Source: Alviniconcha marisindica (lineage: Eukaryota > Mollusca > Gastropoda > Provannidae). From it: DNA of 64,000 nucleotides. Of this stretch, positions 1,277 to 57,300 are shown piece after piece (within the stretch, counting starts at the first letter, position 1; each line of letters begins with the position of its first letter). The notes below the pieces were generated by a model. The model was not told the DNA's origin. It did no database searches and saw only the letters and a program-made list of their open reading frames with translations. A program made the position numbers and the translations under genes. The stretch covers positions 147,501 through 211,500 of the forward strand of contig JABMCL010002542.1 of the NCBI GenBank assembly GCA_018857735.1. Direction: 5' to 3'.

Positions 1277-3194
1277 CTGAAACAAGAACACACAAGTCTT
1301 GCATACATTTTAAAAAATATTATATTTTAACTAGCTTTTCTTACAAGTGTATCTAGGTTATACTTCTTGTTCTGTGTTTTCATGCCTGCTGTAAAATTTC
1401 ACCAACATTGTGTTTGTTGTCAGCAAAAAATTTGTATTAAGTATATCTAGGTTATACTTCTTGTTCTGTATTTTCATGCCTGCTGTAAAACGTCACCCCA
1501 TTGTGTTTGCTGTCAGCAAAAAAATGGTTATAAGTATATATCTAGGTTATACTTCTTGTTCTGTATTTTCATGCCTGCTGTAAAATGTCACCACATTGTG
1601 TTCATTGTTAGCAAATTTTTGTAATAAGTATATATCTAGGTTATACTTGTTCTGTATTTTCATGCTTGCTGTAAAATGTCACCGACATCGTGTTTGTTGT
1701 CAGCAAAAAGACAACGTACCATCGTAAGACAGCTGCTTCATCCTGGCAGCGGCTCTGGCATCCTGGACTTTGTCCGTCACTTGTCTCCATGCCTCTGCAA
1801 ACAAAAAATATTCCATAGCTTCATGAAACAGCTGAAAGCCGATGCCATGCGGGGCAGACAATTGAGCCTACTGCAAGATAGAATTTTCATTCTGTTCAAT
1901 GCAAAGTCAATCAAATATCCTTGCTACACACCTCCGTGTTGTCAGTTCCTTGAAGGTTAGGCTTGGAGGTAATTCTGACATCCTCCGACATGATCTCAAA
2001 AGCCAGTCAGGGCATGCTGACACTTTACCTTTCATCGACTGGGTCCGACAGCAGAATCCGTCCTCGGACGTGATCTCAAAGGCCAGTCAAAGCATGTCCT
2101 TGATGAAAGAACCAGTCCTAGTCTTACCTGCCATCGACTGGGCCCAGAGGAACTCGTCCTCGGACGTGATCTCAAAGGCCAGCGAATGCATGTCCTTGAT
2201 GAAAGAACCAGCACTCTTACCTTTCCACTGACTGGGCCCCGACAGGAGAACCCGTCCTTGGACATGACCTCAAAGGCAAGTCAATGCACGTCTTTGATAA
2301 CAGAACCAGTCCTAGTCTTTCCTCCAACTGACTGGGCACTGACAGAGGAACCCATCCTCAATCATCACCTCAAAGGCCAGTCAGTGCAGGTTACTGATAA
2401 AAGAACCAGCACTCGTACCTTCCATTGACTGGGCCCACAAAGGCCTGTCAATGCCTTGATAAAAGAACCAGCACTCGTACCTTCCATTGGCTGGGTCCCA
2501 CAGGAGAACCTGTCCCTGGACGTGATCTCAAAGGCCTGTCATTGTCAATGCCTTGATAAAAGAACCAGCACTCGTACCTTCCACTGGCTGGGTCGGACAG
2601 GAGAACCCGTCCTTGGACGTGATCTCAAAGGCCAGTCAATGCACATCCTTGATAAAAGAACCAGCGCTCGTACCTTCCACTGGCTGGGTCCGACAGGAGA
2701 ACCTGTCCCTGGACGTGATCTCAAAGGCCAGTCAATGCGCATCCTTAATGAAAGAACCCACACTCTTACCTTCCATCGTCTGGGCCCGACAGGAGAACCC
2801 GTCCTCGGACATGATCTCGAAGGCCAGCCGCGGCATGTCCTTGGGCCAGGCGCCAGGAGCGACACTGGTCTGCTGAGCGGAGGGCAGGACCTGGGTGTAT
2901 CGCAGAGGGGTGTCTCGGATCTCCTCCTCCACCTCCGCCTGAGGCAGAATGGCGCCGGCTTGGTGGGAGAGGTGCACTATGGGATGGCTGAGCGGCCCTC
3001 CTGAAACACAGCATGCTATATGCATGTATTCTGTCCGACGGATGAGTGGGTGGCTCTGTATCAACATGCGTACAATAAGCGGGTCGTAAACATATGAGCA
3101 GGGCATCTGAAACTCTTATATTTATATATATACACACTCTCCCATACACCGTCTACCAAGTCACACACATGTATACACACTCGCACACAAGGCC

Positions 3195-3225
<31 letters not shown>

Positions 3226-3323
3226 ACACTGGTGTAGCACATTCACATTCTTTCTCAACAACACTCTCCCATACACTCTCAAAGTCTCAAGTCACACACA
3301 TACACACTCGCACACAAGGCCCC

Positions 3324-3355
<32 letters not shown>

Positions 3356-6300
3356 GGTGTAACACATTCACATTCTTTCTCAACAAAAACAGTCCCTCCC
3401 ATACACTCTCAAGTCATACACATACACACTTGCACACAAGCTCACCCCCCCCCCCCCCCCCCCCCCCCCCACCCCCAACACACACACACACACACCCAAC
3501 CTCACGCATACACGCACTCACCTTTCGGCTTCCTCCCGGGCTTCTTTTTCAAAGGGATCCGGACAGCCTTGGGCTTGGCCTTGGCCTTGGCCTTTTTGGC
3601 CGCGCCGGCACCGGCGGACTTCACCTCCTTCCGCATCAGCACGCTCTGCTTCCGGGCGTGGGAAGGCAAGTGGTGCTTCAGCAGGTTTCTCACCCCGGCC
3701 AGCGCGCTGTTGGCCTGCTCGCGGCTGAGCGCCACTCCCTGCTCTTTCCCCAGCATCTCCCTCAGGTGAGACCCGGACAGCGACGCCTGGCGGGGGGCAC
3801 TCTGGTGGGCGGACGCCGAGGCCGAGGCCGAGGCCGAGGCCGAGGCCGGGGCCGCCGCCGGCTGAATCATCTTGTCTTGCAGGCAGGAGGGCTGCACGAG
3901 GTCTCCGAACCGCCCTTGGATGATGCCGTTCTTCTCCACCGGCAGCATCAAGGCTCGCTTCAGCGGGGGGGCGACGAAGGCGGGCGGGGTCGCCGAGGCG
4001 GTCCGTTTCCGCATCGCAACTGCGGGCAAGGAGCTCTGCGGCACGAGGCCGCCGCCCCTGGACAGGCCGAACCCGGCCACGCTCCCCTGGCTCGCGGCGG
4101 ACGGCAGCAGCGAAGAGAGAGCGGGGGGAGGGGGGAGGGGGGCAACCGTCGGCGCTGCCACCGCAGCCGCTGCCGCCGGGGGACCGGAAGACGAGACCTG
4201 CACGATCCTGACCAGGGGCTGCATGGTCCCGGCGGCCAACCTGGCGGCCAGGTTCTGGCCGGGTTGCAGGGGCTTGTCCAGCACCACGCGGATCACCCGT
4301 GGCTGCTGCTGCTGCTGCTGCTGCTGCGAGGGCGTTGCGTAGGGCGCCGCGCAGCCCCCTGCCACCGACACCAGCGCGCTGGGCACGGAAGTCTGCAAGG
4401 CGCTGCAGGACGAGGCCATGGCACCCTGGATCAGAGACAGGAGCTGCAGCCGCGCCTTCTCGTCCTCCTGGTTCTCCGCGGCCGGCTTGGTGGGGTCGAA
4501 GAGGAAGCTGCCCATGTAGCCCACGGGCTGAGGGCCGGCGGCAGCAGACACGGGCTGGCGGGGCAGACCGCCCAGCACCGCCGGCGGCGGGCACAGGATG
4601 GAACCCTGCGCTTGCGGCGTCATCAGCCCGGCAGCCAGGGAGCCTGGGGCTCTGCCGTCCAGGGCGGGGAGACCTGGGCCCAGCGGGCTGGGCATTCCTG
4701 CAGGGCCGGGGGCGAACTGGGCCTGGGGCGCCAGGGAGGTGACCGGGGCTAAGGGCATCAAGGGCTGCCTCACCACCAGGCCGGGGTGCTGCTGGTGGTG
4801 GACGACCTGCACGGCTGCCTGCGGTGGTTGCGGTGGTGGCGGTGGTTGTGGTGGTTGTGGTGGTGGTGGTGGTGGTTGTGGTGGTGGGGGTGCCTGGGGC
4901 AGGAACGTGGTCTGGAGGGCGTGCGGCTGCGGGACGAGGACGCTGCTGTCCTGCTGGGGGAAAATGGCCAGCTGCCCCGCCGCGGCGCCCAGACCGGACG
5001 GCGTGCTGACGAACCTCAACGCCGAGGTGCTGGGAATCAGCGACGGGCCCGGCCCTGGGCCCACGAACCGGCCCTGGGCCCCGTCAACCACCACCGGCTT
5101 CGGCGGCTGAAAAACGGTGCCGGCGGTCAGGGTCATGTGCGGGGCCATGCCGCCAGACTGCCGCAGCCGGGACCGTTCCTCGGACTCCTCGATGCTGAGG
5201 GCGCCCGTTTTGAGGAGCTGTTGCGTCAGGACCACCTTCTGGTCCGGGGAGAGTTTCTCCAGGAGGGCCAGCAGCTGGTTGGCTTGCACCTGCTCCGGGG
5301 TTCGGGGGCATCCTATTCTCGCGCTCTCCGCCAGCGGAGGAGGCGTGGCGGTGTCGACAGTAACCCTGACCTGGGATTCCAGGGATCTGGAGGGCGCAAC
5401 AGGAGATGTGTCCATGGTCATTTCTTCGTCTTCGCTGTCTGTAAAGCTCAGATCGTCGCTGTCGATGTCAGCCTGAACGTTGGCAGAGGACAGCAGCAGC
5501 GACGACTGCGACTTGTAGCTGTCCGCGAAAGGAAGAGAACTGGACGTGTACGGGAGAGCACCGGACGTGTACGGGAGAGAACTGGGCGCGTAAGGGAGAG
5601 AACTGGCTGCACAAGGGAGAGAACTGGGTGCGTAAGGGAGAGAACTGGGCGTACAAGGGAGAGAACTGGCTGTACAAGGGAGAGAACTAGGGGTACAGGG
5701 GACAGAAATGGACGTAGAAGGGAGGGAACCGGGTGACAGCAACTGCGTAGCGCTGGCCGTGCCCGATGGAGCGGGCGCCGCGGTCGGCTGCGATGTCTGC
5801 GGCGCCTGCGATTTGATCAGGATTTCCACTTTCCTGTCCGTTCTGCCGGTGACGTTGATGTGCAGAGGTGTCTGTTCCGGTCTGACGGGCGTCGGCGTCG
5901 ATGAGAGGGAGGTGGCCAAACGGGAAAGGATCGGGGACGTGGTTCTGTGCTTGTCCGCCGTGCTGCCGATTCTGCTCTGGCTCTGGCACGCAGCACCTCG
6001 CGGGGCGCCCTCTGCAGCTGGCAAGGATTTCGTCAGGTGCGGGGGGGCTGGTGGCTCACCAGACGCCGGTGCCTTCTTGGCACTGCCATCCGCACCAGAC
6101 ACGGGTGGTCTGTCAGCCGGAGGAGCGGGATCTTCGTCCAGGAAAATCACGTCGCTGTCGTGGTCAGAGTCATCAAGGCACGAGTTCTTCTCCGCAGGAT
6201 TCTCACAGGAGATCGGGCTGGTGGTGCCGGTAGGGTCCGTTTCTGCTCTGCCCGAAACAGGGCCTGAAGAGTCCATCAACTCTGTCGCCGCGCTGCTGAA

Positions 6301-7723
6301 GCCACTCCCCGCCCGCGGGCTTTCCTTGGGACCAGCGGACTCCTTAGGCTCAGTTTTGTGAGCGCTGTTCACGACCGTTTCAGGTACTTCGGGCGTTTCA
6401 GACACTTCGGGCGTTTCAGACACTTTGGGCGTTTCAGACACTTCGGGCGTTTCGGACATTTCCGGTATTTCCGATACTTCAGGTGTTTCAGGCACTTTAG
6501 GCGTCGGCAACTCTAGCTCGGTACCTCGCGTAACGTCAGGCTGGCTGTCCGACATCTTCCCCGATTCCGCAGTTTGGTTACTGCCGACCAGAGACAGGAG
6601 AGAATCGAACTCCTCAACACTTTTTGACTCCTTCTCCCCAAGCTGCGTCTGATCGCCAGCGACGTTCGCCTCCTGGCCTTCCGAAGCCTGCGACGACTCC
6701 CTCCGTCTGCACCTGCGCACGACAGACGAAGGCGAAAGAGCGGAGAGCCTCTGACCGCGGCCCTTCTGCGTTGATAGCTTGGCGCCGCTCGCCTGCCCTT
6801 CCAGACAGTTCTTGCTGATGAGGCCCACTGCTCCAAGCATGGACTGCTTGGGCGACAGCTGCTCGGAGGGTCTCTCGCCGTCCAACCGGTCCTGCGGGGA
6901 CGGCTGCTGCGACAGCTTGCGGGGTCTCCCTCGCCCGCGTTTGACGGTGAGAGGCTCCATTTCATGCTGGACAGCGTGGTGCTCGCCGGCAGCCGGAAGG
7001 AGCAACAGCTTCCTGGGTCGGCCGCGCCGGGTTCTGTGTCCGTCCGATTCCAGGTGGTTCTTCTCCGCGGCCAGGAAGGACGGCCTCCCGGGTCGGCTGC
7101 GTCCGCGAAGAGCCGGGGCCTCCCCCGAGGCCTCCTCCGGGCCGTGAGCGGTTCTGGGCGACTTTCCCGAGCCCAGCAGGGTGACCTTCTCGGCGGCCTG
7201 CTGAGCGAGCTGCTGCTGGCTGGACTCCATGGCTTTTCGCTGCGTCAGCGTGCTCTGGCGAAGGCTGGTTCTCAGGCCCTTGCTGCCGTCACTGCTCTCC
7301 TTCCCCTCCCCCTCCTCCTCCTCCCCCTCCTCCTCCTCCTCCTCCTCCTCCTCCTCCTCTTCCCCCCGTTTGCCGTCCTCTTCCCCCTCGTCTTCCCCTT
7401 CCTCGTCTTCGTCGCTCGTGCTGAGGTCGAAGTCGCAGGACTGGGCGTGCGCCTGGAAGCTGTCCACCGTGCGGTACAGGCGCTTGCAGGTCGGGCACTT
7501 GAACGGGCCGCTCTCGCCCGGGCTACTGCGGGCCAGGCTCTCCGCTTTGATCCGCAGGGCGATCTCGGTGTGGAGCGGAAGGCATTCCCCCTCCCCTTCC
7601 TCCCCCTCCTCCTCCTCCTTGATCCTCTCGGCACCTGCTTCTTCCGGCAGCGGCGGCGCTTGGGGAGAGGCCGGCGAACGCTGGGCGGGGCCCCGCTGTC
7701 CGGGGTTGGGGGCTAAACGCTCC

Positions 7724-7754
<31 letters not shown>

Positions 7755-10125
7755 AGGAGGAGGATTCCGAGTCACTCTGGCCGGTCAGGGAGTCGGCGTC
7801 CCCTCCTCCTCCTCCTTCTTCCTGGGCATCTGCTCCTCGCGGGCGACCTTGACTCGGGGGGGACGAATCCTTCAGGAAGTCCATGAAGCTGCGGTTGAAA
7901 GAGTGGGGCGGGTCTGCCGCCTTCGTGGAAGAAGCCGCGCTGGACGGGGCAGCACCGGACGCCTCCGGCTGGGCGCCGTTTTGACAGTGAGCGCCGTTGC
8001 TGGAACGCAGCGAGGCGGCGTTGCCGGCCGCGGGGCGATGCTGCGCGAGGGGGCGGCGGGACGAGGAGCCGCCGGGCTGGGAGCCGCCGCGGAGGGCGCT
8101 GCCTTCAGGGTCGTCTTGCGAAGGCTGGGGGGCCGCGTCGTCACCGCCGTACTGCCTCTTGACGGCGCTGGGCAGCCTCTCCACGCTCACCCGGCACTCC
8201 ACGGTCCGGAGACACTCCGCGATGGCCTTGTCGACGGAGGGAGGGGGGTGCAGGGCCAGGTCCACCAAGCGATCCTTGTCCGAGCGGCTGTTCTTCAGCA
8301 GGGCCTCGCTCTTGTCTAAACCGTTGCACAGAGGCTTTCCGCTCGCGGACGACGTCACCACCTCGGCGTCACGGCCCGTCTCTGCTGCAGTAGCAGCAGC
8401 AGCAGCACTGCCGGACTGGCTCAAGCCCACCAGGTTGCGCAGCTCGCTGGAAGGGTCGGCCTTCATCAAGCCCCGCCTCAGGTCTTTCAGCTCCACGGGC
8501 TCGGCGCTCACCAGGCCCTTGCCCGCCGCACCCGGATTCTGCCTGCTCTCCAGGCCGGCCGCGCTGTCCGACCGCCTGGGGGTTTCAGAGGCTGCGGCGA
8601 CAGGGGCGTCCTCGTCCTGTCCGCCTTCAGCCGAGGGATCAGCCGGGAGCCCGACGTCCTTTCCTCCGACACCTTCCTCGGCCTTCGCTTCCGCCGAGGC
8701 TTTCGGAACCACGCCTTCAGACAGCGAGGTACCGGCGCCTTTGGAGCCCGAGCTTCTGTCCCAGCGCGTTTCCGCCGCGGCGCAGCTCACGCCGCGGCGC
8801 CCACGCAGGTCCTGCACGCTGACCGAGCTGCTGAGCTCGCTGAGGCGCAGCTTGTGAACGTTCACGGAACACCGCAGCTTCTTGGCGTCCAGGTTCCGCG
8901 GAAGCCTGATCCTGGGGTCGACAACGCCCGCCGCCAGGGACGAGCCGTCCCCGAGACGTCGGGGCCGCAGCTCCTCCGGAGCCGTCCCGGAGTCCCCCAG
9001 GCGCGGGGCCTCGTCCGCACAGTCCTCGCCGTCAGACGCGGCTTCCAGGAACTCCAGGCCGGCGGCAGACTCGCGGGCATCGGCGGCAGCACGCTCCGCG
9101 CTGACGCCGGTTTCGCCGCAGTCGGCGACGGCGTCCGAAGCCTCTGGGTCGGTGTGACCGCCTTCCACGCGGGCGTGGTCCGCTTCCACGCCGCTTTCCG
9201 CTTCAGCGATGCCCCACGACTCGGTCGCGGCCGACCGAGCTGCGAAACTGGCACAGCCTTCCGGCTGCAGGGGTGGAGCGACGGAACCGCCGCCGCCGCC
9301 CTTCTCACGCAGGGACGCCGCTGGGGGCGGCGGCGCGCCCTTCTCCGAGTCGCCATCGGCACCGCGGCCGACTTCAGCGGCGGCGGCAGCTGCCCGAGGC
9401 AAGGGAAGTCTGAAATGCTCCGTCGGAACCTTCCCGCTCCGCGGTGCCAGCTTGCCCGGGTCGCGCCGGATGTCGATGGAGCTGCCCGTGGTTTTCACCG
9501 TCTCCACCACGTAGGGGCGGTGCTTCCGCTGACCGATCAGGTTGCCCAGCTTGTCGTAAACGGGCGCCACTTCCAGCATGTCGGCCATCTTCAGCGTGCT
9601 GGTGCTGGATTCGCTGACGCTCTGATCCCGCCCTTCGGGCTGGCTGGTGCTTGAAACGAGGCCTTGGGGCTGGCCGACGGAGCTCTGCGAATGGCTGCCG
9701 GTAGCTGCTGAAGGCGGGGCGGCAGCTTCCGGACGGGCTGAACCCGTCGCCGGCCGGCCGCCGCCCGAAGCCGCCTTGTCCGCAGCGACCGGGAGATTCG
9801 TCGTCGTCGTCGTCCTCCGTCAGGAGCTCCTGCTTGACCTCCTTGCAGTGACTCACCAGCCGCTCGGCAGCTCTGCCCTTCCGCGGGCGAGGCTCCAACA
9901 TGACGCACTTGGTGATGACGCAGTCTTCATCCGCCGTCGCCGGCGCCCTCCCCTCCTCTCCAGCGGCTCTGTCGGCGTCAGCGTCAGCGCCAGCGCCACC
10001 CGAGGCAGCTGGGCTTAAAGAGTCTGCCGCGCCTTTGCCCCCGGCTTCCGCCGGCAGAGGGCCGGTCACTGCGTCTTCGGAGCTGCCCTCCCCTTGCCCA
10101 GCAGTTGCCTGCTCCTCCTGGGGCT

Positions 10126-10165
<40 letters not shown>

Positions 10166-10390
10166 CAGCAGAGCTTCCCGGGCCAGACGGACGGCTTCTC
10201 CTTCGGGGACGTTCCCGGGCACCGTGAGGACCTTCACCTCCGACCCTTCCAGGCTTTCCCCGGGCGCGCTCTGCAGGACCTGCCGCGCCAGCGTCACGTC
10301 TCCACCCACGTCCGCCGGCCCCGCCTCCTCGCCGCCGTCGCCCGCCTTGCTTCCGGCCTCGCCCTTCCGGACCGGGGCGGCGGAGCCGGG

Positions 10391-10426
<36 letters not shown>

Positions 10427-13400
10427 CGCCGTCAGGTCCACGAACTCTTCCCTGGGCGGCGGGGCGGAAGACGGCCGCCTGCGTTTTTTCGAGGGGGCCG
10501 GCGGCGCGGACGGGCTTTCCGCGGGGTCCCTCTCGCAAAGCTCGATCTCCAGCTGCTCCAGTATGGGCGTGACGGTCGGGGCTTTGCGCACGTGCGCGCC
10601 GCCGGGCCCCGGGAGCGACGCGTCGGGCAGGGACAGGGACCGCTTGAGGGGGAGGGGGGGCGGGGAAGCGGCGGCGGCGGCCGCGAGGGGGCGGAAGGGA
10701 CTCGGCGGCCGAGGGTCGGCGGCGGCGGCGAAGCCCAGCGGGGAGAGAGAGGCGGAGCGCTTGGGGTGAGCCAGCCCGGGGGCCGACGCCGGGGTCCAGC
10801 GGTCCACGCTGCTGCACCTCTTGCCGCGCAGCGGCCCGGCGGGGCTTCGCTCGCTCCTCTTCTCTCCGCCTCCGCCGCCGCCTCCGCCGCCGCTTCTGCT
10901 GCGCATGGCCGCGCTGTTCAGTCGCTCGATCATGCCGGTCAGGTTCCCGAACTCCCCGCCCCTGCCACCGGACGCCGGCAGCGTGGGAGGAGGCTGGGGG
11001 AGGGAGGGCGCCCGCTTCGGGTCCGAAATGTTCAGCATCTTCAGCGTGCTGGAGGAGAGCCGGGAGTAGTCGAACGCCGGCTGCGCAGGTGCCGCAGCTT
11101 TCCTGGGCACGCCGGACTCCTTCGCGGCGGCGGCGGCGGCGGGGCACAGCCCGACGCCAGGGGCGGGTCGAGGTACGCCAGGCGCCTCGGCAACAGCGGC
11201 GGGCTTCGGCGAGGGGTTCGCGCCGCTGCCCACTCCGCTCTCCGGACCATCCGAGGGCTTCGCGTCCGCGCTGCCGGACGGGTCCCCCGCGCCGGCCGCC
11301 CCGGAAGCCTTGACGGCAGATCCTCCGCTTCCGGCAGCGGAGTCCTGCGAGGATTGCGGACCGGTCAGCGCCGGGCGCAGGAGGCCGGGGCCGCTTCCTG
11401 GCGACGCCTGCGAAACGAAGACGACGTCGTCGCTCGGCGGCAGCAAGTGCGCCAGGCCCATCGACGGCAGGTCCAAGGAGTCGAGGGGCAGGTAATCAGG
11501 GTGCTGCTCGTCGTGAACCACACGCACGTCTCGCAGGGCCAGTTCCGGCGTGGGCGGCGTGGGCCGGACCTCGGTGATGCGGCACGTGTACACCGTGCGT
11601 CGTCTGGCGTCCACCGTGCTCCAGTACACGCGCGTGCATCTGAAGCAACAAACATGTGGACGTATAAAGTACACAGCACAGCACTGGAACCGGTGGGGGG
11701 CTTTTCACACTTTTCCTTGTTTCTAAGACGTGGGGCTTTTTTTTGATGATGATGAAGCGATGCTTAATGTCCTGGGATGTCGGTTGACATATTAGGGACA
11801 GGCTGAGACCGATGCCGAAGCACGGTTCAGTATAGCTTTACGTCCACGGAAACCAGGAGGCTCGTCGTTAGGACGTGCAGACAGCCCAGGACGGCCACCT
11901 CGACTCTCACACAGCTCCTGAACTATGCTTTTTGATGGTGATGATGATGAAGTGATGCTTAATGTCCTCAGATGTCAGTTGACATATTAGGGACAAGTTG
12001 TAACCAATGCCGAAGCACGGTGCAATAAATCTTTACGTCCACGGAAACCAGAAGGCTCGTTAGGACGGACAGCCCAGGACGGCCACCTCTACTCTCACAC
12101 AGCTCCTGAACTATGCTTTTTGACGGTGATAGTGATGGCTTTTATATAGCGCTATTCTTCGCTCTCGAGCAGACTCACTGCGCTCGCATGTGATTCTACA
12201 TGAGTGAATAGCTATTTATAGCGCGTTTTTGAACATCCACCGAAGTGGTGTGGATGAAGAAAAAAAGAAGAAAAAAATGGATGACGGTGTCGCTAGGTTC
12301 TTCACTCGCTTCGGAGGGAATTTGTTTATTTGTTGACAGCGCTGGCATGGCTGGTGCTGCTGAAACTGCATTATTTTGAACCTTTTCTGTGCCTGGGTCT
12401 TTCTTTCTAAGACTTGTTACTTTTTTTGTGGGGGGGGGGGGGGGGGGGGGGTGTAGTCTCCCCTTCGAACTGTGTGCACAGTTCAGCACCATTACAAAAC
12501 TGTTCTGATGCTTGGTGAGACTACAGTGTGCTGCACGCAACAGAACACAGAAACTGGACACAGAAATGTGCGTACTGACTGTAATTTTATGCAGTCAGTA
12601 GACAAAATTTCTATGTCCTCACACACAGACAAGAAAGACTGTATTCTGCAACACAGCCTAAAGCCCGTTCTTAATTGGGCGAATGTTTCTTCGCGAACCT
12701 TGTTGAAAGTATTCGGCGAAGCTAGTTGGTTCTTAATTGGGCGAATGTTTCTTCGCGAACCTAGCTGGAAGTATTCGGCGAAGCTAGTTGGTTCTTAATT
12801 GGGCGAATGTTTCTTCGCGAACCCAGTTGGAAGTATTCCGCGAAGCTAGTTGGTTCTTAAATGGGCGAATGTTTCTTCGCGAACCTAGTTGGAAGTATCC
12901 CGCGAAGCTAGTCGGTTCTTAATTGGGCGAATGTTTCTTCGCGAACCTAGCTGGAAGTATCCCGCGAAGCTAGTTGGTTCTTAATTGGGCCAACTGTTCT
13001 TCGCGAACCTAGTTGGAAGTATTCGGCGAAGCTATATTCGGGGTCCAAAAAGCTTCGCTCAACATGTTCTGGGAACATTCGCCCTATTCGATTGGCTGAG
13101 AGCAGAGCTCTCTGTGGATGACGAAAAAATAAAAAATAAAAATGGATGACGGTGTCGCTAGGTTCTTCACTCGCTTCGGAGGGAATTTGTTGATTTGTTG
13201 ACTCGTGGGAGGCGCAGCCTTGTCTCGGGGACCCAGAATGAGATAGTAGTTAGTTGAATTACCCTGTGAGGGATGAGGAAAGTATACTTGACTTGACTTG
13301 ACTTTAGCCTACATTTTCGATCATGCTGTCTGCTGCGCGTCTGCCGCAAGTTCGGGCCGAAGCTTGCATCTCATTACGAGCCAGTTGAGAACGAAGTAAA

Positions 13401-16306: not shown

Positions 16307-16349
<43 letters not shown>

Positions 16350-21990: not shown

Positions 21991-22036
<46 letters not shown>

Positions 22037-32614: not shown

Positions 32615-32709
32615 CACACACAGTAATTCGTTACAGAGGAGAGAACCGTGCTAATTAAGTTGCATACTTTCAGATGAAATCTAGTATACTTCAGAGAAAA
32701 CACACACAC

Positions 32710-32765
<56 letters not shown>

Positions 32766-32848
32766 TCATTACAGAGGAGCGAACCTTGCTAATTAAGTTG
32801 CATACTTTCAGATGAAATCTAGTATACTTCAGAGAAAACACACACACC

Positions 32849-32881
<33 letters not shown>

Positions 32882-32983
32882 TCATTACAGAGGAGCGAAC
32901 CTTGCTAATTAAGTTGCATACTTTCAGATGAAATCTAGTATACTTCAGAGAAAACACACACCACCACCACCACCACCACCACC

Positions 32984-33017
<34 letters not shown>

Positions 33018-34853: not shown

Positions 34854-34914
<61 letters not shown>

Positions 34915-37189: not shown

Positions 37190-37225
<36 letters not shown>

Positions 37226-42521: not shown

Positions 42522-42578
<57 letters not shown>

Positions 42579-45500
42579 CATGTGACCCTCCTTCTGAAAA
42601 TACACTGAGGTTTCAAAATGATAGCAAAGACAAGTTCAACAATGAAGTTTTGAACCTCCACTGTGACCCTGACCTTGAACACAGCATAGCAATCTTTTCA
42701 CTACACACTCCAGCTTATAATGATGTACCATCAAAAAGGTTTGGTCGCGAAAGGATCCAAAGGCCTGAAGATATAATGGAAACAGTCATATTTTGATTGC
42801 ATGCACTGTGACCTTAACCTTGACAATAGCAATCCATTTTTTTTGCATGACTACTACAACACTAACAGGTTTTATTACAAAAGGTTCAGCAGTTCAGAAG
42901 ATATCATCCAGACAAACATTAACTGAAATTGTGAATGTCCACACTCCAGAGTCCACTCACAAAGGCACACTCTCAAAGTCTCACTCTCAGTCTCCACTCT
43001 CAGACAGAGACACTCTCCACTCTCAGACAGAGACACTCTCCACTTCTCAGTCTCCACTCTCAGACAGAGACACTCTCCACTCTCCACTCTCAGTCTCCAC
43101 TCTCAGACAGAGACACTCTCCACTCTCAGTCTCCACTCTCAGACAGAGACACTCTCCACTCCACTCTCAGTCTCCACTCTCAGACAGAGACACTCTCCAC
43201 TCTCAAAAGCTCACTCCCCACTCTCAGACAGAGACACTCTCCATTCTCAGACAGAGACACTCTCCACTCTCCACTCTCAGACAGAGACACTCTCCACTCT
43301 CACTCTCAGTCTCCACTCTCAGACAGAGACACTCTCCACTCTCAGACAGAAGCCCACTCCCCACTCTCAGACAGAGACACTCTCCATTCTCAGACAGAGA
43401 CACTCTCCACTCTCCACTCTCAGTCTCCACACTCAGACAGAGACACTCTCCACTCTCAGACAGAACCTCTCCCCTCTCCCCCACCCACAGACAGAAACCC
43501 ACTCTCCACCCACGCAAAACCCACTCTCCACCCACAGACAGAAACACCCAGAGCACCCCTCTCCACTCTCAAACAGAAACACTCTCCTCTCAGTCTCCAC
43601 TCCCGACAGAGACACTCTCCACCTCACTCTCAGTCTCCACTCTCAGACAGAGACACTCTCCACTCTCAGACAGAAGCCCACTCTCCACCCACAGACAGAA
43701 GCCCACTCTCCACCCACAGACAGAAGCCCACTCTCCACCCACAGACAGAAGCACAGAAGCACACTCTCCCCAGAAGCACACTCTCCACTCTCAAACAGAA
43801 GCACTCTCTCCACTCTCATCTCAGACAGAAGCACACTCTCCACTCTCAGACAGAAGCCACACTCTCCACCCTACAACAGACAGAAGCACACTCTCCACTC
43901 TCAAGACAGAAGCACACTCTCCACTCTACAGACAGAAGCACACTCTCCACCTCTATGTCTCAGACAGAAGCACACTCTCCACTCAAGCAGACAGAAGCAC
44001 ACTCTCCACTCATTGTCTCAGACAGAAGCCACTCTCCACTCACAGACAGAAGCACTCTCTCCACTCTCGCAGACAGAAGCACACTCTCCACTCTATATGT
44101 CTCAGACAGAAGCACACTCTCCACTCTATATGTCTCAGACAGAAGCACACTCTCCACTCTATATGTCTCAGACAGAAGCACACTCTCCACTCACAGACAG
44201 AAGCACCTCTCCACTCTCGTCTCAGACAGAAGCACACTCTCCACTCTACCAGACAGAACCCTCACTCTCCCCCTCACAGACAGAAGCACTCTCTCCACTC
44301 TCTGTCTCAGACAAAAGCACACTCTCCACTTTTTCCAGACAGAAGCCCACTCTCCACTCAAACCAGACAGAAGCACACTCTCCACCCACCAGACAGAAGC
44401 CCACTCTCCACCACAGACAGAAGCACTCTCTCCACTCCCCCAGACAGAAGCACACTCTCCACTCAAACCAGACAGAAGCACACTCTCCACCCAAGCAGAC
44501 AGAAGCACACTCTCCACTCTCAGACAGAAGCACACTCTCCACCCACAGACAGAAGCACACTCTCCACCCACAGACAGAAGCCCCACATCTCCACCCACAG
44601 ACAGAAGCCCACTCTCCACCCACAGACAGAAGCACAGAAGCACACTCTCCACTCTCAGACAGAAGCCCACTCTCCACCCACAGACAGAAGCACATTCTCC
44701 ACCCACAGACAGAAGCCCACTCTCCATCCACAGACAGAAGCACACTCTCCACTCTATCTCAGACAGAAGCACACTCTCCACTCTATGCAGACAGAAGCAC
44801 ACTCTCCACCCACGAGACAGAAGCACACTCTCCACCCACAGACAGAAGCCCACTCTCCACCCACAGACAGAAGCACACTCTCCACTCTATATGTCTCAGA
44901 CAGAAGCACACTCTCCACCCACAGACAGAAGCACACTCTCCACCCAAGCTAGACAGAAGCACACTCTCCACTCTGTCCAGACAGAAGCCACTCTCCACTC
45001 CACAGACAGAAGCACATCTCTCCACGTCTCAGACAGAAGCACACTCTCCACTCACAGACAGAAGCACACTCTCCACTCTTAGTCTCAGACAGAAGCACAC
45101 TCTCCACTCTACATGTCTCACACAGAAAGCACACCTCCCCACCTCAGACAGAAGCACACTCTCCACTCTATGTCTCAGACAGAAGCACACTCTCCACTCT
45201 ATATGTCTCAGACAGAAGCCACTCTCCACTCACAGACAGAAGCACCTCTCCACTCTTGTCTCAGACAGAAGCACACTCTCCACTCTATATGTCTCAGACA
45301 GAAGCACACTCTCCACTCTATATGTCTCAGACAGAAGCACACTCTCCACTCTATATGTCTCAGACAGAAGCACACTCTCCACTCACAGACAGAAGCACCT
45401 CTCCACTCTTGTCTCAGACAGAAGCACACTCTCCACTCTATATGTCTCAGACAGAAGCACACTCTCCACTCAAGTCTCAGACAGAAGCACCTCTCCACTC

Positions 45501-48500
45501 TATATGTCTCAGACAGAAGCACACTCTCCACTCTATATGTCTCAGACAGAAGCACACTCTCCACTCTATATGTCTCAGACAGAAGCACACTCTCCACTCT
45601 ATATGTCTCAGACAGAAGCCACTCTCCACTCTATATGTCTCAGACAGAAGCACACTCTCCACTCTTGTCTCAGACAGAAGCACACTCTCCACTCTATATG
45701 TCTCAGACAGAAGCACACTCTCCACTCTATATGTCTCAGACAGAAGCACACTCTCCACTCTAAAAGAAGCACCTCTCCACTCTTGTCTCAGACAGAAGCA
45801 CACTCTCCACTCATCAGACAGAAGCACCTCTCCACTCTCTGTCTCAGACAGAAGCACACTCTCCACTCTATATGTCTCAGACAGAAGCACACTCTCCACT
45901 CTATATGTCTCAGACAGAAGCACACTCTCCACTCTATATGTCTCAGACAGAAGCACACTCTCCACTCTATATGTCTCAGACAGAAGCACACTCTCCACTC
46001 TATATGTCTCAGACAGAAGCCACTCTCCACTCACAGACAGAAGCACTACTCTCCACTCTCTGTCTCAGACAGAAGCACACTCTCCACTCTATATGTCTCA
46101 GACAGAAGCACACTCTCCACTCTATATGTCTCAGACAGAAGCACACCTCTCCACTCTATATGTCTCAGACAGAAGCACACTCTCCACTCTATATGTCTCA
46201 AGTTGACAGAAGCACACTCTCCACTCTATATGTCTCAGACAGAAGCACACTCTCCACTCTATTGTCCAGACAGAAGCACACTCTCCACTCTTGTCTCAGA
46301 CAGAAGCACACTCTCCACTCTATATGTCTCAGACAGAAGCACACTCTCCACTCTATATGTCTCAGACAGAAGCACACTCTCCACTCTATATAGTCTCAGA
46401 CAGAAGCACACTCTCCACTCTATATGTCTCAGACAGAAGCACACTCTCCACTCTATATGTCTCAGACAGAAGCACACTCTCCACTCTATATGTCTCAGAC
46501 AGAAGCACACTCTCCACTCTATATGTCTCAGACAGAAGCACACTCTCCACTCTATATGTCTCAGACAGAAGCACACTCTCCACTCTATATGTCTCAGACA
46601 GAAGCACACTCCCACTCTATATGTCTCAGACAGAAGCACACTCTCCACTCTATATGTCTCAGACAGAAGCACACTCTCCACTCTATATGTCTCAGACAGA
46701 AGCACACTCTCCACTCTATATGTCTCAGACAGAAGCTCACTCTCCACTCACAGACAGAAGCACTCTCTCCACTCTCTGTCTCAGACAGAAGCACACTCTC
46801 CACTCTATATGTCTCAGACAGAAGCACACTCTCCACTCTATATGTCTCAGACAGAAGCACACTCCCCACTCTATATGTCTCAGACAGAAGCACACTCTCC
46901 ACTCTATATGTCTCAGACAGAAGCACACTCTCCACTCTATATGTCTCAGACAGAAGCACACTCTCCACTCTATATGTCTCAGACAGAAGCACACTCTCCA
47001 CTCTTGTCTCAGACAGAAGCACACTCTCCACTCTATATGTCTCAGACAGAAGCACACTCTCCACTCTATATGTCTCAGACAGAAGCACACTCTCCACTCT
47101 ATATGTCTCAGACAGAAGCACACTCTCCACTCTATATGTCTCAGACAGAAGCACACTCTCCACTCTATATGTCTCAGACAGAAGCCACTCTCCACCTCCA
47201 GACAGAAGCACTCTCTCCACTCTTGTCTCAGACAGAAGCACACTCTCCACTCTATATGTCTCAGACAGAAGCACACTCTCCACTCTCATGTCTCAGACAG
47301 AAGCACACTCTCCACTCTATATGTCTCAGACAGAAGCACACTCTCCACTCTATATGTCTCAGACAGAAGCACACTCTCCACTCTATATGTCTCAGACAGA
47401 AGCACACTCTCCACTCTATATGTCTCAGACAGAAGCACACTCTCCACTCTATATGTCTCAGACAGAAGCACACTCTCCACTCTATATGTCTCAGACAGAA
47501 GCACACTCTCCACTCTATATGTCTCAGACAGAAGCACACTCTCCACTCTATATGTCTCAGACAGAAGCACACTCTCCACTCTATATGTCTCAGACAGAAG
47601 CACACTCTCCACTCTATATGTCTCAGACAGAAGCACACTCTCCACTCTATATGTCTCAGACAGAAGCACACTCTCCACTCTCAAAAAGAAGCACGCTCTC
47701 CGCTCTCTGTTCCAGACAAACGCAAGCACGCTCTCCGCTCACAGACAAGAAGCACACTCCCCACGTTCCACTTACCGGCAGTAGACACACTTCCCACAGT
47801 TTGGCGCCAGACACCCCGAGCACTCGCGGCATCGGCCTTTCCGTCTGCGCAATCGATTCAGCCGTGACCTCATCTTCTTCATTCCCGCAGGACGAATCAC
47901 TGTACTTCGCTTGGACGGCGACGCCACCTCCTCATCCGAAGAGTCTGAAATTTAAGAGACAGAGAACCGTTAGCGTAGTCAGACCATGCAATAAATAGCC
48001 TGGCTGTACCAGCGATAGACATGGCTCAGGAGCTGTGTGAGAGTCGAGGTGGCCATCCTGGGCTGTCCGTCCTAACGAGCCTTCTGGTTTCCGTGGACGT
48101 AAAGCTATACTGAACCGTGCTTCGGCACTGGTCTCAGCTTGTCCCTAATGTGTGTCAGCCGACATCTGAGGGCATTAAGCATCACTTCATCAGTGATAGT
48201 GCTGCTGATAGACATTTTCCAAACTGGTGTGACGTGTGTAAGATAGCGAAAGTGGTTCACGGAAACCGGTCAGACAATCACTGTAACCGGTCAAATACTC
48301 TGCCATCTATAGATCTACTACAAGAGCTCTACCAGCAAACATCATGTTCCCTTCCCTGTCCCTCCATCCCAGATGCACTCTCTCTGTGTGCCGCGGCTCT
48401 TTTTTTCTTCTTCTTTTTTTTGTGAGGTGGGGGGCATTGGGGGGGAGTTATTTGGGAATCGGTCAAGCTAAATAACAGCCAGTATTTCTGATCCACTGCC

Positions 48501-48821
48501 AAGTTGGTTTCCGGCATATGCTGATCTTAACCGATAAAATACCAAAAATGACCAGTTAACATGAACCCTGTGTACGCTTATAAAGTTATATACCAACCTG
48601 TTTCCCAAGGCTTCAAGACACATCACAATGACGCCCCACTGTAGTTCATCAAAAAACAGGTAATAACTGTATGCACTACAGTGACAAGCTGAGACAACCT
48701 GCACAGGTGCCCATCTGTCTTCGCTAAGGTTTACGTACTAGTAAATCTCAACTACTAACTCAAGACAATTCTCTTCTCAGAATATTTTAGAACACTGTCC
48801 TTCCTATACAGCTGTCTGTGC

Positions 48822-48904
<83 letters not shown>

Positions 48905-48930
48905 TGTGTGTGTGTGTGGGTGGTGTGTGT

Positions 48931-48989
<59 letters not shown>

Positions 48990-51900
48990 TGTGTGCGTGT
49001 GTGCATCTTGTACATAGTTATGCTTGGAACCCTTGTTGATGTGTACATTATGTGTTAGCACTTGTTAAACTGCAGATAACATTTTCTATTTCAATGTACA
49101 TTATGTGTGTCATGTTTGTTCAGTACTCTGAGCCTCTGAGGGGTAGGCACTTTACAAATTTCCATTCCGATGATTATTCTTATTCTTATTAAATCTCAAC
49201 TCTACTTCATCAAAACGAAACAAAACGATGTCATAAAAGAAGAATAAAAATAATAAAATAAAAGAAGCGGGTTTTAATGATGCCCAGACAGGCAGACACA
49301 ACCCGTATCACTACCCACCTCTTCTCTCCGCTCGGCTGGCCGCCTGACTCTGCAAAAGCCGCTCCTTCTCAGGGGAGGGGAGAGCACTCAAGGTGGGTGA
49401 CCCGGACCGTTCTGGGGGAGCAGGAAAAGTGGCGAGGGGTTTGGGCAGCACCACTGCCGCGCGGCGACACACGTGTTTGATTCGCGGACCGCCAGACTCC
49501 CTCTTCACAGATGCGGTCTCTCTGGATTTCTCTGCAGTTGTCTCCCCTGGTTCTTTCTTGCTAGGCAGCGAGATCGGGGAGAGGGATGAGACAATTCTTG
49601 GTGGCGAAGCTAGAACAAACAATTTTTACGGTAAATTTATGTTGTGTTTGTACAGGGAAACATTGTTTAATGGTGGGTTCACAGGATTGCAGAAGTTTGC
49701 AACTTTCCAAAAGTTGCATATCTTTGCAACTTTTTGAAATAACAAACGGATGACAAAAAGATCGAGTTGAATCAAGCGTAGAAATGTGCCCCCAAGCAGA
49801 ACAGTAGCTTCACAGAGTAAAATTATTTTTTTCATGGAATTATGTTTTGTATGCGCAGGATGGTGCTTTTTACTGCCTTTTATGCACTTCTTTCACTCGA
49901 CAGCCTGTTTTGGGTCGGTCTTTTTTAGATTCAAACCGATCAGACAACCCAGGTAAGCACACAGTCCACGATAAAATATTAAAGTTATCGAAACGGGCAA
50001 AGGACAGAAAGTAAAGGCAAAATAACTGAAACAAAGACCTACCTGTCACCACAACTACTTGTATACCTGCCCATAGATGTACCTATTCATGACCCTACCT
50101 GTTCATTTTCACTTTCATTCTGATAACCATTATGATCGACCCGTCAACGTTTCTACTGTTCTACATGTCCACATATGTACCTGTTCATCACTATACCTGT
50201 TCAGTTTATTTCTTCTTTTTCGGCATAACCTGCACAGTGACCTTTCAACTCATCTACTGGGGTACCTACACACAATCCACCCAAAAATAAATTTACCTGT
50301 TTACCCTCATGCTTCTCATTCGTCTAACCATAAAGACCTACCTGTTTCCACAACTACTTGTGTACCTGCCCATAGATGTACCTGTTCACGACCCAACCTG
50401 TTCATTTTCACTTTCATTCTGATAACCATTATGATCGACCCGTCAACGTTTCTACTGTTCTACATGTCCACATATGTACCTGTTCATCACTATACCTGTT
50501 CAGTTTATTTCTTCTTTTTCGGCATAACCTGCACAGTGACCTTTCAACTCATCTACTGGGGTACCTACACACAAATCCACCCAAAAATAAATTTACCTGT
50601 TTATCCTCATGCTTCTCTTTTATCTTTACAACAAAGACCTACCTGTCACCACAATTACTTGTATACCTGCACATAGATGTACCCGTTCATGACCCTATGT
50701 GTTAATTTTCAGACTTTCATTCCACACAGATCCACCTGAAAATAAATTTACCTGTTTATCCTCATGCTTCTCTTTCGTCTTTACAACAAAGACCTTCCTG
50801 TCACCTCAACTACTTGTATACCTGCCCACAGATGTACTCATCCAACTTGATATGTAAACTTACCTGTCCACTTACAGTTACAGACCCGTCTATATACCCA
50901 CCGATCATGTTCATCTTGATCCTTTCTTTCCGGTTAACCACGAAAATTTACCTCTACGCTCACCATCCTAGTCCAAAGATACTATTACCTTAGTGGAAAT
51001 GTACGTGGACAGATGAGAAGATTCCACAGGTGTATTAATCATCAAAACTATTTGTGGGTAGGGAGAGGCATAACTGTGCCGACATGTTTGCAGTGAGCCG
51101 TCAAGAACAGCAAGAAAATGCTTGTGTGGATAAACGGGTAGTTTTGTGACTATTCCCAGGCAGGAAACCCTAGCTCGTTAAAATTTTTTTTTTCACCCAT
51201 TAACTGACGGGTAGGTCTGTGGTTTGGGGAGACAATACCCCAAATTTGGGCATGTATGTGGTGCCAGTTGTATTTAATAAAAAGGGCAATTTTTGTCGGT
51301 CGGGAAAACCAAAAGGGTTAAATGCGTCGAAAAACTTTTACATTTTAAATTGAAACGATTTGGTTTTTTTGGGGCAGGGGGGTTTATGGCCATCAGGGGG
51401 CACCAATCATAGGGGTTTGTAGGGGGGTAGCCCAATAGCTTTGTGGTTTCCTACCCAAAATTTTTTGGGAAAAGGAAAAATTAATTTTTTGAATTTTTTC
51501 TTTGACAAGAAAGGTAGATCAATTATCATTCATATGTGTGGTAAGGTAGGTTCATACATAACCATGGTGGTAGAATAAAACACATTAATTACTGTTATGT
51601 AGATGTATAATAGTAGCCGGTAGATCTGTAGTTAGGGGCAAGCCTCGTGCCCCGCCCAAAGTTTACTACTTTTAATTTTTTGATTAGATCTAGACACTTT
51701 CTTCTGTATGATTACAGACTCGACTAAATAAATTTTAGTAGACTCGATGTGCTGTCTTGACAATGAAAAGTATTCATATTCTGCCAATGTAGGCGCAGGT
51801 GTGTTTACGATATTATTTCTGATGCAGCTGTGACCAGTAATAAACTGAATCAACACATCAAACAGGCTGCACTATCATAAAAATGCGATCAACTGAATAA

Positions 51901-53332
51901 TATTGGTAGTAGATTCGGTGTGCCAGTTCCAAGTTGCGTAAGTTTGAAAACTAGGGTTCAGACAATCCCAGAACTTTGCAACTTGTCGCAGATCTTTGCA
52001 ACTCGGTCTGGTGGGATGAAACCACACCGAACGGTAAATAAATCAACATGGATGTGCAGAGTATAGATTACCTTTCCATCTTTTATCTGTTGTCATTATT
52101 ATATTTTTATGTGCTGCAGTTATTTAATGCCAGCCTATTTCATGATGTATGTGACGATGAAATTCGAGGCAGTAATTTCCGACACTGACTGAAAACTTTC
52201 ACATCTTTTACGACTATGCAACATGGAAAGGTATGGTCAAACCGCACAGTACATGAAACTGATAGGAAATCAATCTCTCTTTCATATGGTATGGTTAAAA
52301 TTTACGGTGGTGTTGTATATATTCACCAGTTAGACAGTTCATGACGGTACCCCTTTTGTTGGTAAAACCCTTTTAAAATTTCCCTTCCAAAACGCTGTTT
52401 TTCGCAAAGTTTTCAACACGGGCTGGTGTGGTTTAATTAAAAAAAAACAGAATAATCTGAACCCGAAGGAAACATATAGAAAAAAAAACCCTTTTTTCTT
52501 TCTGGTGGTACCAAATTTCCCTTAAATTTTTAAAGCCCTAGGTTTTTTAGCAGTAATCCAGTTTCTGAAGCAAGTGACAACAAAAAGTTGCATAAGTATG
52601 CAACTTTTTAAATGTTTAAAATTTAGAGTTAGGGAGATAAAGGGGGGTGTTTTAAAAAAAAGGGAAAATTAAACCGTTATGAAATAAGGAAATTTCCCCC
52701 ACTTTTACCTTTTCAATTTTCCCTTTTCCCCCCACTCCATTTTTAAACGGTAGGGCCCTGGGGAAACCAACAAAACCCACCCAAAAAACGCTGAAGAAAA
52801 GGTGGCCAAAACAAAAGTTTTCCAAAATTTTCCCGTGGCAAAATGAACTGATTTCAAATGTAAAAACAGGTAGAACAATTTTTTTTTCACGTGGTACCAC
52901 TCTTTAAAATTTTTCCCTGCTCTAGAATTTTTTTTAATAACCCAACCCCCAAATGGCTTCAAAAAGTTGCATAAGAAAGCAACTTTTTGGCCTTTTGAAA
53001 TTTTTTAAAAATTTTTGACACTTGGGCCAGAAGTTTGAAACGGGCTTTTGGGTTTTTTCAAAATAAACAAAATTGGGAATTACATAGGGTAAAGGGCTCG
53101 TAGAAAAAAAAAACTTTCATTAATTTTTTCTTTAAAGGTGTTGGGTTTTTTTTTTTAACATACAGGCTGTGGTTTTTTAACAGCAACGTCGTTTCTGACC
53201 CCAAGGGGCGACGCGTAGTAATACATTTTTGGGGGAAACTTTGCAACCCTTCTTTCAAACGGTTAAACCCCCCATAAATGTATTTTGTTTTTTTTAAAAG
53301 GGAAAAATTGTTTTTTAAATTACCAAAACCTA

Positions 53333-53380
<48 letters not shown>

Positions 53381-53666
53381 TGGGGCCCCCCCCCCCCCCC
53401 CCTTTATCAGTCTAAAACCCAAGATTTAAATCCCCTGAAGCCCTCTCGCCCCCACCCCCCCCCCAAATCTATCTTTTGATCCCACCCAAAAACAAAAAAA
53501 ATCCCAAAAACCAAAGAGCCTCCCCCCCCAAACCCCGGGTACCCAAAACTTCCCCCCCCACCCCCACCCCCCCAACCCCCCCCCACACACCCCCCAACTT
53601 GTAAAAGTGTTATATTTCCCCCCCCTTCCCCCAAAAACCCTTTTGAAAAGGACCAAAAACCCCCTT

Positions 53667-53721
<55 letters not shown>

Positions 53722-54150
53722 CCCATCCCCATCAATCTACCCAAAGACAAACTCACCAAATACCCCCAACCCCCACCCCTTAAAAAAAACCTGCTAAAAC
53801 TAATAAAAGTGCTTGCATGAATCCACCCAAAGACAAGAAAAGACCACACCAAAGAAACCCCCACCCCCAACCCTGCTACCAATCCACCCAAAGGCAAAGA
53901 CAAACTCACCAAAGACCCCCACCCACCAAAACAAAACAAAAACAACCACCCTGCTGTCATTAATCATACTCAAAGTATCATCAATCCACATAGACTGATA
54001 GAGACAAAAAACACCAAAAAACACCACACCAAAAAATCACCACCACCACCCAAACCCTGCTATCAATCTATAGATCTACCTTGAGACAAACTCACTAGAC
54101 ACCCCTCCACCCATAATACTTTGTATCAAAGACAAACTCACCAAACTCAC

Positions 54151-54182
<32 letters not shown>

Positions 54183-54342
54183 ACCCACTGCTATCAATCT
54201 ATCTACTAAAAACAAATAACTACAAAAACAAACTCACCAACTCCCCCCCCCCCCCACCCCCACCATCCACTAATTGTATCAAAAGACAAACTCACCAAAG
54301 ACACCCCCCTTCACGCATAATACCTTCTATCACTCACCAAAG

Positions 54343-54378
<36 letters not shown>

Positions 54379-57300
54379 AATGAATCCCTACTATCAAAAG
54401 ACAAACTCACCAAGGACACCCCTTCACCCATAATGATAACACCTTCTATCAAAGATAAACTCACCAAAGGCCCCCACCCCCCCATTAATCCCTACTATTA
54501 AAATACAAACTCACCAAAGACACCCCAACAAACTCACCAAAGACCCCACACCTCACCCCCACCAATTAATCCCTACTATCAAAAGACAAACTCACCCCAT
54601 CACCCATAATACCTTCTATCAAAAGACAAACTCACCAAAGACACCCTTTCAGTTTCACCCATAATACCTTCTATCAAAGACAAACTCACCAGACACCCAT
54701 TCACCCATAATACCTTCTATCAAAAGACAAACTCACCAAAGACACCCATAATACCTTCTATCAAAGACAAACTCACCAGACACCCCTTCACCCATGATAC
54801 CTTCTATCAAAGACAAACTCACCAAAGACCACCCACCAAAGACCCCCCCCTCCCAATAATAAATCCCTACTATCAAAACACAAACTCACCAAAGACACCC
54901 CTTCACCCATAATACCTTCTATCAAAGACCCCCCCACCCCCACCAAAGACCCTCCCCCCCAATAATAAATCCCTACTATCAAAAGACAAACTCAAAGACA
55001 CCCCTTCACCCATAATACCTTCTATCAAAGACAAACTCACCAAAGACACCCTTTCACCCATAATACCTTCTATCAAAGACAAACTCACCAGACACCCCTT
55101 CACCCATGATACCTTCTATCAAAAAACAAACTCACCAAAGACACCACTGCACCCATAATACCTTCTATCAAAGACAAACTCACCAAAGACACCCATAATA
55201 CCTTTTATCAAAGACAAACTCACCAAAGACACCCCTTCACCCATGATACCTTCTATCAAAGACAAACTCACCAAAGACACCCATAATACCTTTTATCAAA
55301 GACAAACTCACCAAAGACACCCCTCCCCATATACCTCTATCAAAACACAAACTCAAAGACCCCCCACCCCCACCAAAGACCCCCCCCCCAATAATAAATC
55401 CCTACTATCAAAAGACAAACTCACCAAAGACACCCCTTCACCACAATACCTTCTATCAGACAAACTCACCAGACACCCCCCCTACACCCTAATACCTTTT
55501 ATCAAAGACAAACTCACCAAAGACACCCCTTCACCCTAATACCTTCTATCAAAGACAAACTCACTTACCTTCTATCAAAGACAAACTCACCAAAGATACC
55601 CCTTCACCCTAATACCTTCTATCAAAGACAAACTCACCAAAGACACCCATTCACCCATGATACCTTCTATCAAAGACAAACTCACCAAAGACCTCCCCCA
55701 CCTCCACTAATGAATCCCTACTATCAAAAGACAAACTCACCAAAGCCCCCCCCCCCTTAATTCCTACTATCATTGTATCAAACTTTAGACAAATTCACCA
55801 AAGACACCCCTTCACCCTTAATACCTTCTATCAAACTCACCAAAGCCCCCCCCCCAATACTTTAATCCCTAAATCAAAAGACAAACTCACCAAAGACACC
55901 CCTTCACCCACAATACCTTCTATCAAAGACAAACTCACCAAAGACCCCCCACACCCCCCTTCCCTGACCATTACTGTCAAAGACCAACTCACCAAATCCT
56001 CCCTGGCTACCCGGCGACACGCTGGCCATGAGCGGCGACGGCTGGCTGTTGGGCGAGTCAAACGGGTGGAGGGCGCCCGACCCAAGCACCGAGATGGACA
56101 AGGGGCTGGTCACTCCGGGCCTCGGAGAGTGGCGCTGCGGCTCACACCTCCTGCCCTTCTGCTTCGCCTCCCGTTTGAGCTGCGCTTTCAGCGACCGGGC
56201 CAGCGCCGCCTTGGAGCGGTTCAGAGCCGTGCGGTTTAGCTGCAGCTTGGCTTTGCGCAGCATGATCTGGCCGCTGCGCTTGGTGAGAATGGATTCCTTC
56301 CCGTCTTTGTCCCGGCGCGGGAGCTTCATCGGGCCCGCCCGGTTGAACGTTTTTGGGGCGGAGGACGGAGCCTTGGGGAACAGGGTGAACTTTTCCTTCT
56401 TGGATCCGTTGGGCTTGAGCGGGTCGCCCTTGAACGAGGAAGCGTCCCCGCCGCCATTTTCACTCTCGGACCCGGGCGTGAGGTCCTCAGACTGACGTTT
56501 GATCATCCTCACTTTGAGGCTGGGGACGCGCTGGCGTTTACCTTCCACGATCAGCGGCTGCTCCAGCAGGCCTTTTCTGAACGGGGACATCTCGGCCATC
56601 ATCAGCAGGTCCGAGCTGCCGCCGGCCGCTTCCGGCGTCTCCAGCTTGTGCTGAGTCACAGCCACTGTGGGGGACACGTCGAGCTGCTGCAGCTGCTTGG
56701 CTGACGGCGCAGCTTCCTGGGCACTTTTAGAATCCGCCTTGGCCAAAGACTTAGCAGTCACTGTCGACTCGGCTTTAAACAACGCTTTCTCAGTCCTTCT
56801 GCTCGCACTCTGGGGAGTGACACCGGCGGCTGGGGTGTGTTTGGGGGCTCTCTGAGGAGTAGAGCAGGAGACCGGAGCCTGTCCGGACACTGCGTTCTGT
56901 TTCCGGGCTCTTTGGGAAGTAGAACCGGGGGTGGCTGAATTCACTTTCTGCCCCCTCTGGGCAGCCGGGCTCGGTGCTGGAGTCTGCTTAAGGGTTCTCT
57001 GGGAAGAAGAAGAACTGGCGGCTGGAGCCTGCTTCTGGCCCCTTTGGGGAGCGGAACTACAGTTAGGAGTCAGCTTCTGGCATCTCCTGCTCGCACTAGA
57101 GCAGGATGGGACAGATGACGTGCTCGGTGTTGCAGCACTGGACTCGGCCGCCTTGTCCCCTTCACAGTCAGCACCAGGGGACGGGGGCGCAGAAGGGGGG
57201 GTAAACTCCACCCGAGGGCGTTTGATCAACAGGGCGGAAGGTATGGGGTCATCCTCGATGAAGCGCTTGTTCGGAATGATGGCACGACGGGACCGGGAAA

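Follow-up and report, generated by a model that had tools for sequence, protein, structure and literature searches.

Host gene and exon model

The 64,000-nucleotide window analysed here (contig JABMCL010002542.1, positions 147,501 to 211,500 of the forward strand) carries on its minus strand a KMT2A/trithorax-type gene, modelled with 25 exons, in which tandem arrays at several exon borders are built from copies of the splice junction itself. Exons were searched for with pieces of human KMT2A, and the borders were then set by GT/AG, reading frame and homology. The exon numbers agree with those of an earlier sequence-only reading of the same DNA. GT/AG was present at 46 of the 46 borders of introns 2-24, the borders having been picked partly for these dinucleotides. 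One open frame of 2,846 codons runs from exon 2 into exon 22, spanning 20 introns, and exons 23-25 form a single uninterrupted frame.

The CXXC, PHD, extended PHD, FYRN and FYRC domains exceeded their Pfam cut-offs, while the bromodomain scored 19.9 bits, below its cut-off of 21.7. The order of domains in the gene product (CXXC, PHD fingers, bromodomain, extended PHD, FYRN, FYRC) is as in KMT2A/B. The top match in the PDB was a KMT2D chain (E 2e-37, over the extended PHD and FYRN), and MLL1 PHD3-Bromo came next (E 2e-21); the CXXC domain and the PHD3-bromodomain pairing suggest the KMT2A/B type. The gene leaves the window at the left end, and a C-terminal SET domain would lie outside the window.

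Tandem copies of splice junctions

Junctions were tested for 23 of the 24 introns (introns 2-24). Intron 1 was left out; its arrays in Tandem Repeats Finder (TRF; 59917-59764 and 58329-58305) have no contact with its donor. Each junction, represented by at most 60 exon and 40 intron bases, was compared with its own intron and flanks by self-BLAST (Basic Local Alignment Search Tool), and a match was counted as crossing if it held at least 4 bases on either side of the junction. Crossing matches were obtained at the donors of exons 2, 9, 13, 19, 21 and 23 and at the acceptor of exon 18 (Table 1); self-BLAST gave none at the remaining 17 donors and 22 acceptors. The sequence-only reading had named these same borders and, as an eighth, the donor of exon 16. 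That last case stands by half: its array, which repeats GTAAGTG, does begin at the donor, but only about 2 exon bases are copied and 0 of 34 matches cross the junction by at least 4 nucleotides (nt). The statement that exon shares are often 20-60 bases fits four of the eight borders (58-93 nt), the other four copying about 2-12 nt. The exons flanking the arrays keep an intact frame and GT/AG borders, which bears out the earlier statement that the copies lie in the intron and leave the exon whole.

Table 1. Positions and composition of the gene, its first exons and the arrays at splice junctions (window coordinates; crossing matches hold at least 4 bases on either side of the junction; donor 9-mers are counted in the exon's own intron).
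Feature	Coordinates	Strand	Unit	Exon share of unit (nt)	Crossing matches	Donor 9-mers	Remarks
KMT2A/trithorax-type gene, exons 1-25	1146..61798	-					gene end beyond window
Exon 1	61798-61634	-					read by eye
Exon 2	55993..58135	-					donor 55993/55992; splice signals; open frame of 714 codons
Intron 2 array	54552..55992	-	about 48 nt, copied donor TTG/GTGAGT	about 11	29	36	29 exact 9-mer copies; TRF 54552-55950
Intron 4 array	42942..47707	-	mostly 33 nt				begins 69 nt into intron; weakly resembles exon 4 junction
Exon 9 tail and intron 9 array	33397..34604	-	about 121 nt, of which 28 intron	93	8	7	8 intron copies
Exon 13 tail and intron 13 array	26572..27504	-	39 nt, of which 27 intron	12	43	27	
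Intron 13 second array	25543..26496	-	86 nt				
Exon 14 acceptor and one diverged upstream copy	25398..25458	-					weak, z 4.7
Intron 16 array	22262..23408	-	31 nt, from donor	about 2	0 of 34	23	23 near-copies of donor 9-mer
Exon 18 acceptor array	20400..21469	-	spacing about 104 nt; about 40 intron each	at most 64	9		
Exon 19 tail and intron 19 array	18543..19228	-	75 nt, exon bases plus GTAA	71	8	8	8 copies; open in frame to intron +195
Exon 21 tail and intron 21 array	14899..16159	-	31/75 nt with TAG/GTTAGT	about 10	20	32	
Exon 23 tail and intron 23 array	2021..2827	-	about 96 nt, of which 38 intron	58	8	6	

Copies were also counted as donor 9-mers (positions -3 to +6, with one mismatch allowed outside the GT). 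The introns behind exons 2, 9, 13, 16, 19, 21 and 23 hold 139 of them in total, where the rate seen in the remaining introns predicts about 5.6, while the other 16 donors have 1 copy altogether against about 3.7 expected. When 300 dinucleotide shuffles were made for each junction, the scores of these seven donors were matched by 0-1 of 300, and that of acceptor 18 by 0 of 300. Weak extra cases were donor 4 (z 3.7, 1 of 300 shuffles) and acceptor 14 (1 of 300, a single diverged copy); at donor 6 (z 3.5, 4 of 300) the exon similarity ends 6 nt before the junction.

An earlier query of 40 exon bases alone, run against own and other introns, gave a clear signal at donors 9, 19 and 23 and at acceptor 18. 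Donor 6 and acceptor 12 also came first by small margins, with similarity short of the junction, and donors 2, 13, 16 and 21 were not top-ranked. Junctions with a short exon share escape so stringent a query, and the junction-centred tests were therefore used.

At intron 13, 46 junction copies were found in all. The first array fits only 23.7 units, so some copies would be carried by the second. At exon 18 all nine acceptor copies lie upstream of the true acceptor (20464/20463), and AG is retained in 9 of 9.

Position of the arrays relative to splice sites

Rows of TRF with a period below 10, or with mono- to trinucleotide-like units, were excluded. Introns 2-24 then contained 32 non-simple arrays. 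These total 22,953 bases, of which a few hundred lie in exons, against 42,157 intron bases, so that the arrays are equivalent to about 54% of intron length. At such a density some contact between arrays and exon borders is to be expected; junction copies exceed the chance expectation in this setting. An array edge lies within 15 nt of the donor in 7 introns (9, 13, 16, 19, 21, 23 and 24) against 1.4 by random placement (P 1.5e-4); intron 2, for which the TRF edge (+42) was used, falls outside this set. With the last 65 nt of introns barred to arrays, 7 were still observed against 3.0 expected (P 0.006). The founding of arrays was tested on 22 of the 32 (those of at least 100 bp) with unit lengths set by hand. 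Six of the 22 span a donor, where uniform founding gives 1.0-1.2 (P 2-5e-4), and three contain at least 58 exon bases against 0.5 expected (P 0.011). One array spans an acceptor, with about 1 expected. The earlier conclusion that some process targets or tolerates splice junctions is, on these donor counts, a fair one.

Further arrays had been reported to start about 10-75 bases behind the donors of introns 4, 10, 11, 18, 22 and 24. Offsets of +68, +68, +46, +59 and +10 were measured in introns 4, 10, 11, 22 and 24, respectively; intron 18, at +200, does not belong to the group. In introns 10, 11, 16, 22 and 24 the array begins less than 70 nt behind the donor and stops 67-133 nt short of the acceptor, as if filling the space that splicing permits.

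Exon 18 aside, TRF placed no non-simple array with an end less than 67 nt from an acceptor, and an array edge within 60 nt of an acceptor was seen once against 5.3 expected (P 0.01). This array-poor stretch would be consistent with a zone, holding branch point and pyrimidines, that does not permit repetition.

Conservation and use of the copied donors

The sequence-only reading had offered selection for spare donors as one cause of the pattern. As spare or decoy 5' splice sites, the copies could buffer splicing, hold the U1 small nuclear ribonucleoprotein (U1 snRNP) over the length of long introns or tune output by stop-containing isoforms. The number of near-identical donor copies given above would agree with this. 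Conservation of the copied donor window was compared with that of every other window of the unit in 7 arrays, copies below a score limit being dropped, which reduced the number counted for exons 2, 13, 21 and 23. In these arrays the copied donor windows showed no extra conservation relative to other parts of the unit (combined P 0.34, in a test whose power is limited by 7-44 copies per array). The share of unit windows conserved at least as well as the donor window ranged from 19% for exon 19, the best case, to 82% for exon 13, the worst, and GT is kept in only 25 of 44 exon 13 copies. Since the copied donors are not conserved beyond their units, selection for spare donors is left without support.

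An in-frame stop precedes the first copied donor in 5 of the 7 introns. Use of a copy there would introduce a stop codon, which speaks against spare donors and would suit isoforms that tune output. Stop-free copied donors occur behind exon 2, where a single copy would add 18 codons, and behind exon 19, where two copies would add 25 in-frame codons each before a stop; the exon 19 case would suit a selected role. Retention of the copies by selection is considered very improbable. In the tail of exon 9, 3 of the 8 intron copies have CGT in place of the cysteine codon TGT, a change that speaks against a coding role.

The exon 19 array is open in frame for 65 codons beyond the donor (18963-19158, minus strand). 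Read-through, or use of a copied donor, would duplicate the final part of the extended PHD domain at this place.

In a single intron of this gene, as many as dozens of near-identical donor copies compete, of which splicing must pick one. Genes with arrays of donor copies are thus natural tests of first-donor choice.

Origin of the arrays

The repeats could have been produced by collapse or stutter during assembly. Assemblies often misjudge the length of arrays in regions of this kind, and the model has one frame break, in exon 22 (9819-9377). The copies, against this, differ by scattered substitutions and small indels, each junction has a unit of its own, and the reading frame of the model holds across the 20 introns that separate exon 2 from exon 22. 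An assembly artefact is an extremely improbable source of the pattern.

The junction arrays are probably neutral tandem duplications that spanned a junction and were then expanded, and they are predicted to be tolerated as the original, exon-attached donor would still serve. Minisatellites would be born in these introns at a high rate. A duplication of exon tail and intron head would leave the first exon and its donor unaltered and place the copies downstream in the existing intron, and so would pass selection. One of intron tail and exon head would set a full acceptor ahead of the genuine site, and most duplications of this type would be lost, as would arrays in the branch-point zone. Such a filter alone would lower the acceptor count and not raise that of donors; the donor excess therefore needs a second factor. 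A moderately raised rate of duplication at donors may be that factor, through a mutation bias at intron starts such as transcription-coupled R-loops on a G-rich strand. Equally possibly, arrays may grow outward until they meet the exon. Growth of the arrays would proceed through slippage or unequal exchange. The G skew of the coding strand averaged 0.35 in donor-near arrays (n=12) and 0.07 in the others (n=10; one-sided P 0.019), which would fit R-loop-linked duplication.

Several points weigh against this neutral origin with a donor bias. The donor motif is itself G-rich, so that the skew result is confounded and is a mere hint. The window was picked as striking, which makes the P values optimistic, and the 65-nt bar was selected after inspection of the data. 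The gap before acceptors depends on the cut: at 75 nt, 4 edges were counted against 6.6 expected (P 0.12). The exon 18 array retains nine complete acceptors, and the number of acceptor-spanning arrays does not fall short of what uniform founding predicts, so that a filter against acceptor arrays is not established. The donor excess also depends on the unit lengths, its P rising to 0.015 when they were doubled and to 0.07 when they were tripled.

The last figure, the acceptor-spanning count and the large share of intron length in arrays would all agree with pure chance in minisatellite-saturated introns, with arrays of uniform origin, harmless straddlers kept and no donor bias at all. Against chance stand the six donor-spanning arrays of the founding test and the seven donor contacts that exceed expectation even with the acceptor zone barred; it is a rather unlikely explanation.

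Other features of the window

Coding exon 22 itself contains tandem repeats at 5529-5735, 6376-6497 and 4823-4892, whose units measure 21, 18 and 6/9 nt, so tandem duplication reaches coding sequence too. The frame change in the same exon, on the minus strand, falls between open frames at 11638-9377 and 9819-3523; it may reflect an overlooked short intron, an error in the sequence or a genuine frameshift. The exon 8 donor (36735/36734), AAG/GTTGCG, is far from consensus, although the spacing in human KMT2A backs this border.

An element with the peptide RPRKPEGSLGRTAQDGHLDSHTAPE is present in two copies on the minus strand, at 14075-14203 and about 47935-48144. This element, and the repeated element with the peptide RPRKPEGSLGRTAQDGHLDSHTAPEL, presumably resemble the reading frames derived from short interspersed elements (SINEs) of gastropods. 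A tRNA scan of the window found none, and no Rfam family reached its gathering threshold in the window.

Comparison with known systems

Tandem duplication inside or across introns is known from other systems. In potato RdRp, duplication of a splice border supplies ready-made signals for intron gain, as described in PMC4974935. The supply of signals is shared with the present gene; unlike that case, the copies here lie inside the model introns, the exon frame is continuous and a new intron is not evident. Intron 3 of an abalone TSSK1-like gene holds a minisatellite with a 27-bp unit whose copy number varies among individuals (PMC6905558). It is likewise a tandem array inside an animal intron; splice-junction content goes unmentioned in the passages considered, whereas the units described here contain the junction.

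The closest likeness is with amphioxus. There, tandem repeats spanning exon-intron boundaries, termed mirages, have been described in Adh3 and in the globin genes BflGb6/BflGb9 (PMC3087553), and troponin C mirages and similar lancelet PGBD5 repeats are reported in PMC3902484. The sequence-only reading had taken the present pattern to be absent from the literature, which the same structure in those reports contradicts. Shared features are tandem units that contain the boundary and lie in the adjoining intron, the presence of AG/GT signals, and the involvement of either the 5' or the 3' boundary. Boundary-containing units of this kind are found here at donors 2, 9, 13, 19, 21 and 23 and acceptor 18, with donor 16 at the border only, and AG/GT is kept in many units (the 139 donor 9-mers that differ at no more than one position, and the nine acceptor copies). 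The amphioxus copies reportedly leave regular splicing undisturbed and the authentic exon is still used (PMC3087553, PMC3902484); in the present gene model the authentic exon and splice site likewise appear intact.

It has also been proposed that new introns and exons can be built from the mirages of amphioxus globins. If the donor excess held genome-wide, the start of an intron would be a mutation hot spot and mirage arrays would be raw material of this sort; if the host is a gastropod, mirages would extend beyond cephalochordates. A wider proposal is that donor junctions are hot spots that start tandem duplications, probably via transcription or splicing at intron heads. Splicing would then give rise to mirages quite generally, and they would be no peculiarity of cephalochordates, with this gene their densest case and maybe the first outside that group. 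We hold this proposal to be unlikely.

Boundary-spanning repeats are thus of a known kind, and what sets this gene apart, within the portions of the mirage papers considered, is their density in a single gene and their donor bias. Unit lengths are of a similar order, 10-72 bp in Adh3 and 150-160 bp in the globins against 31-121 bp here. The amphioxus mirages described there involve one or two boundaries per gene, against 8 of 46 borders here, with a measured bias towards donors.

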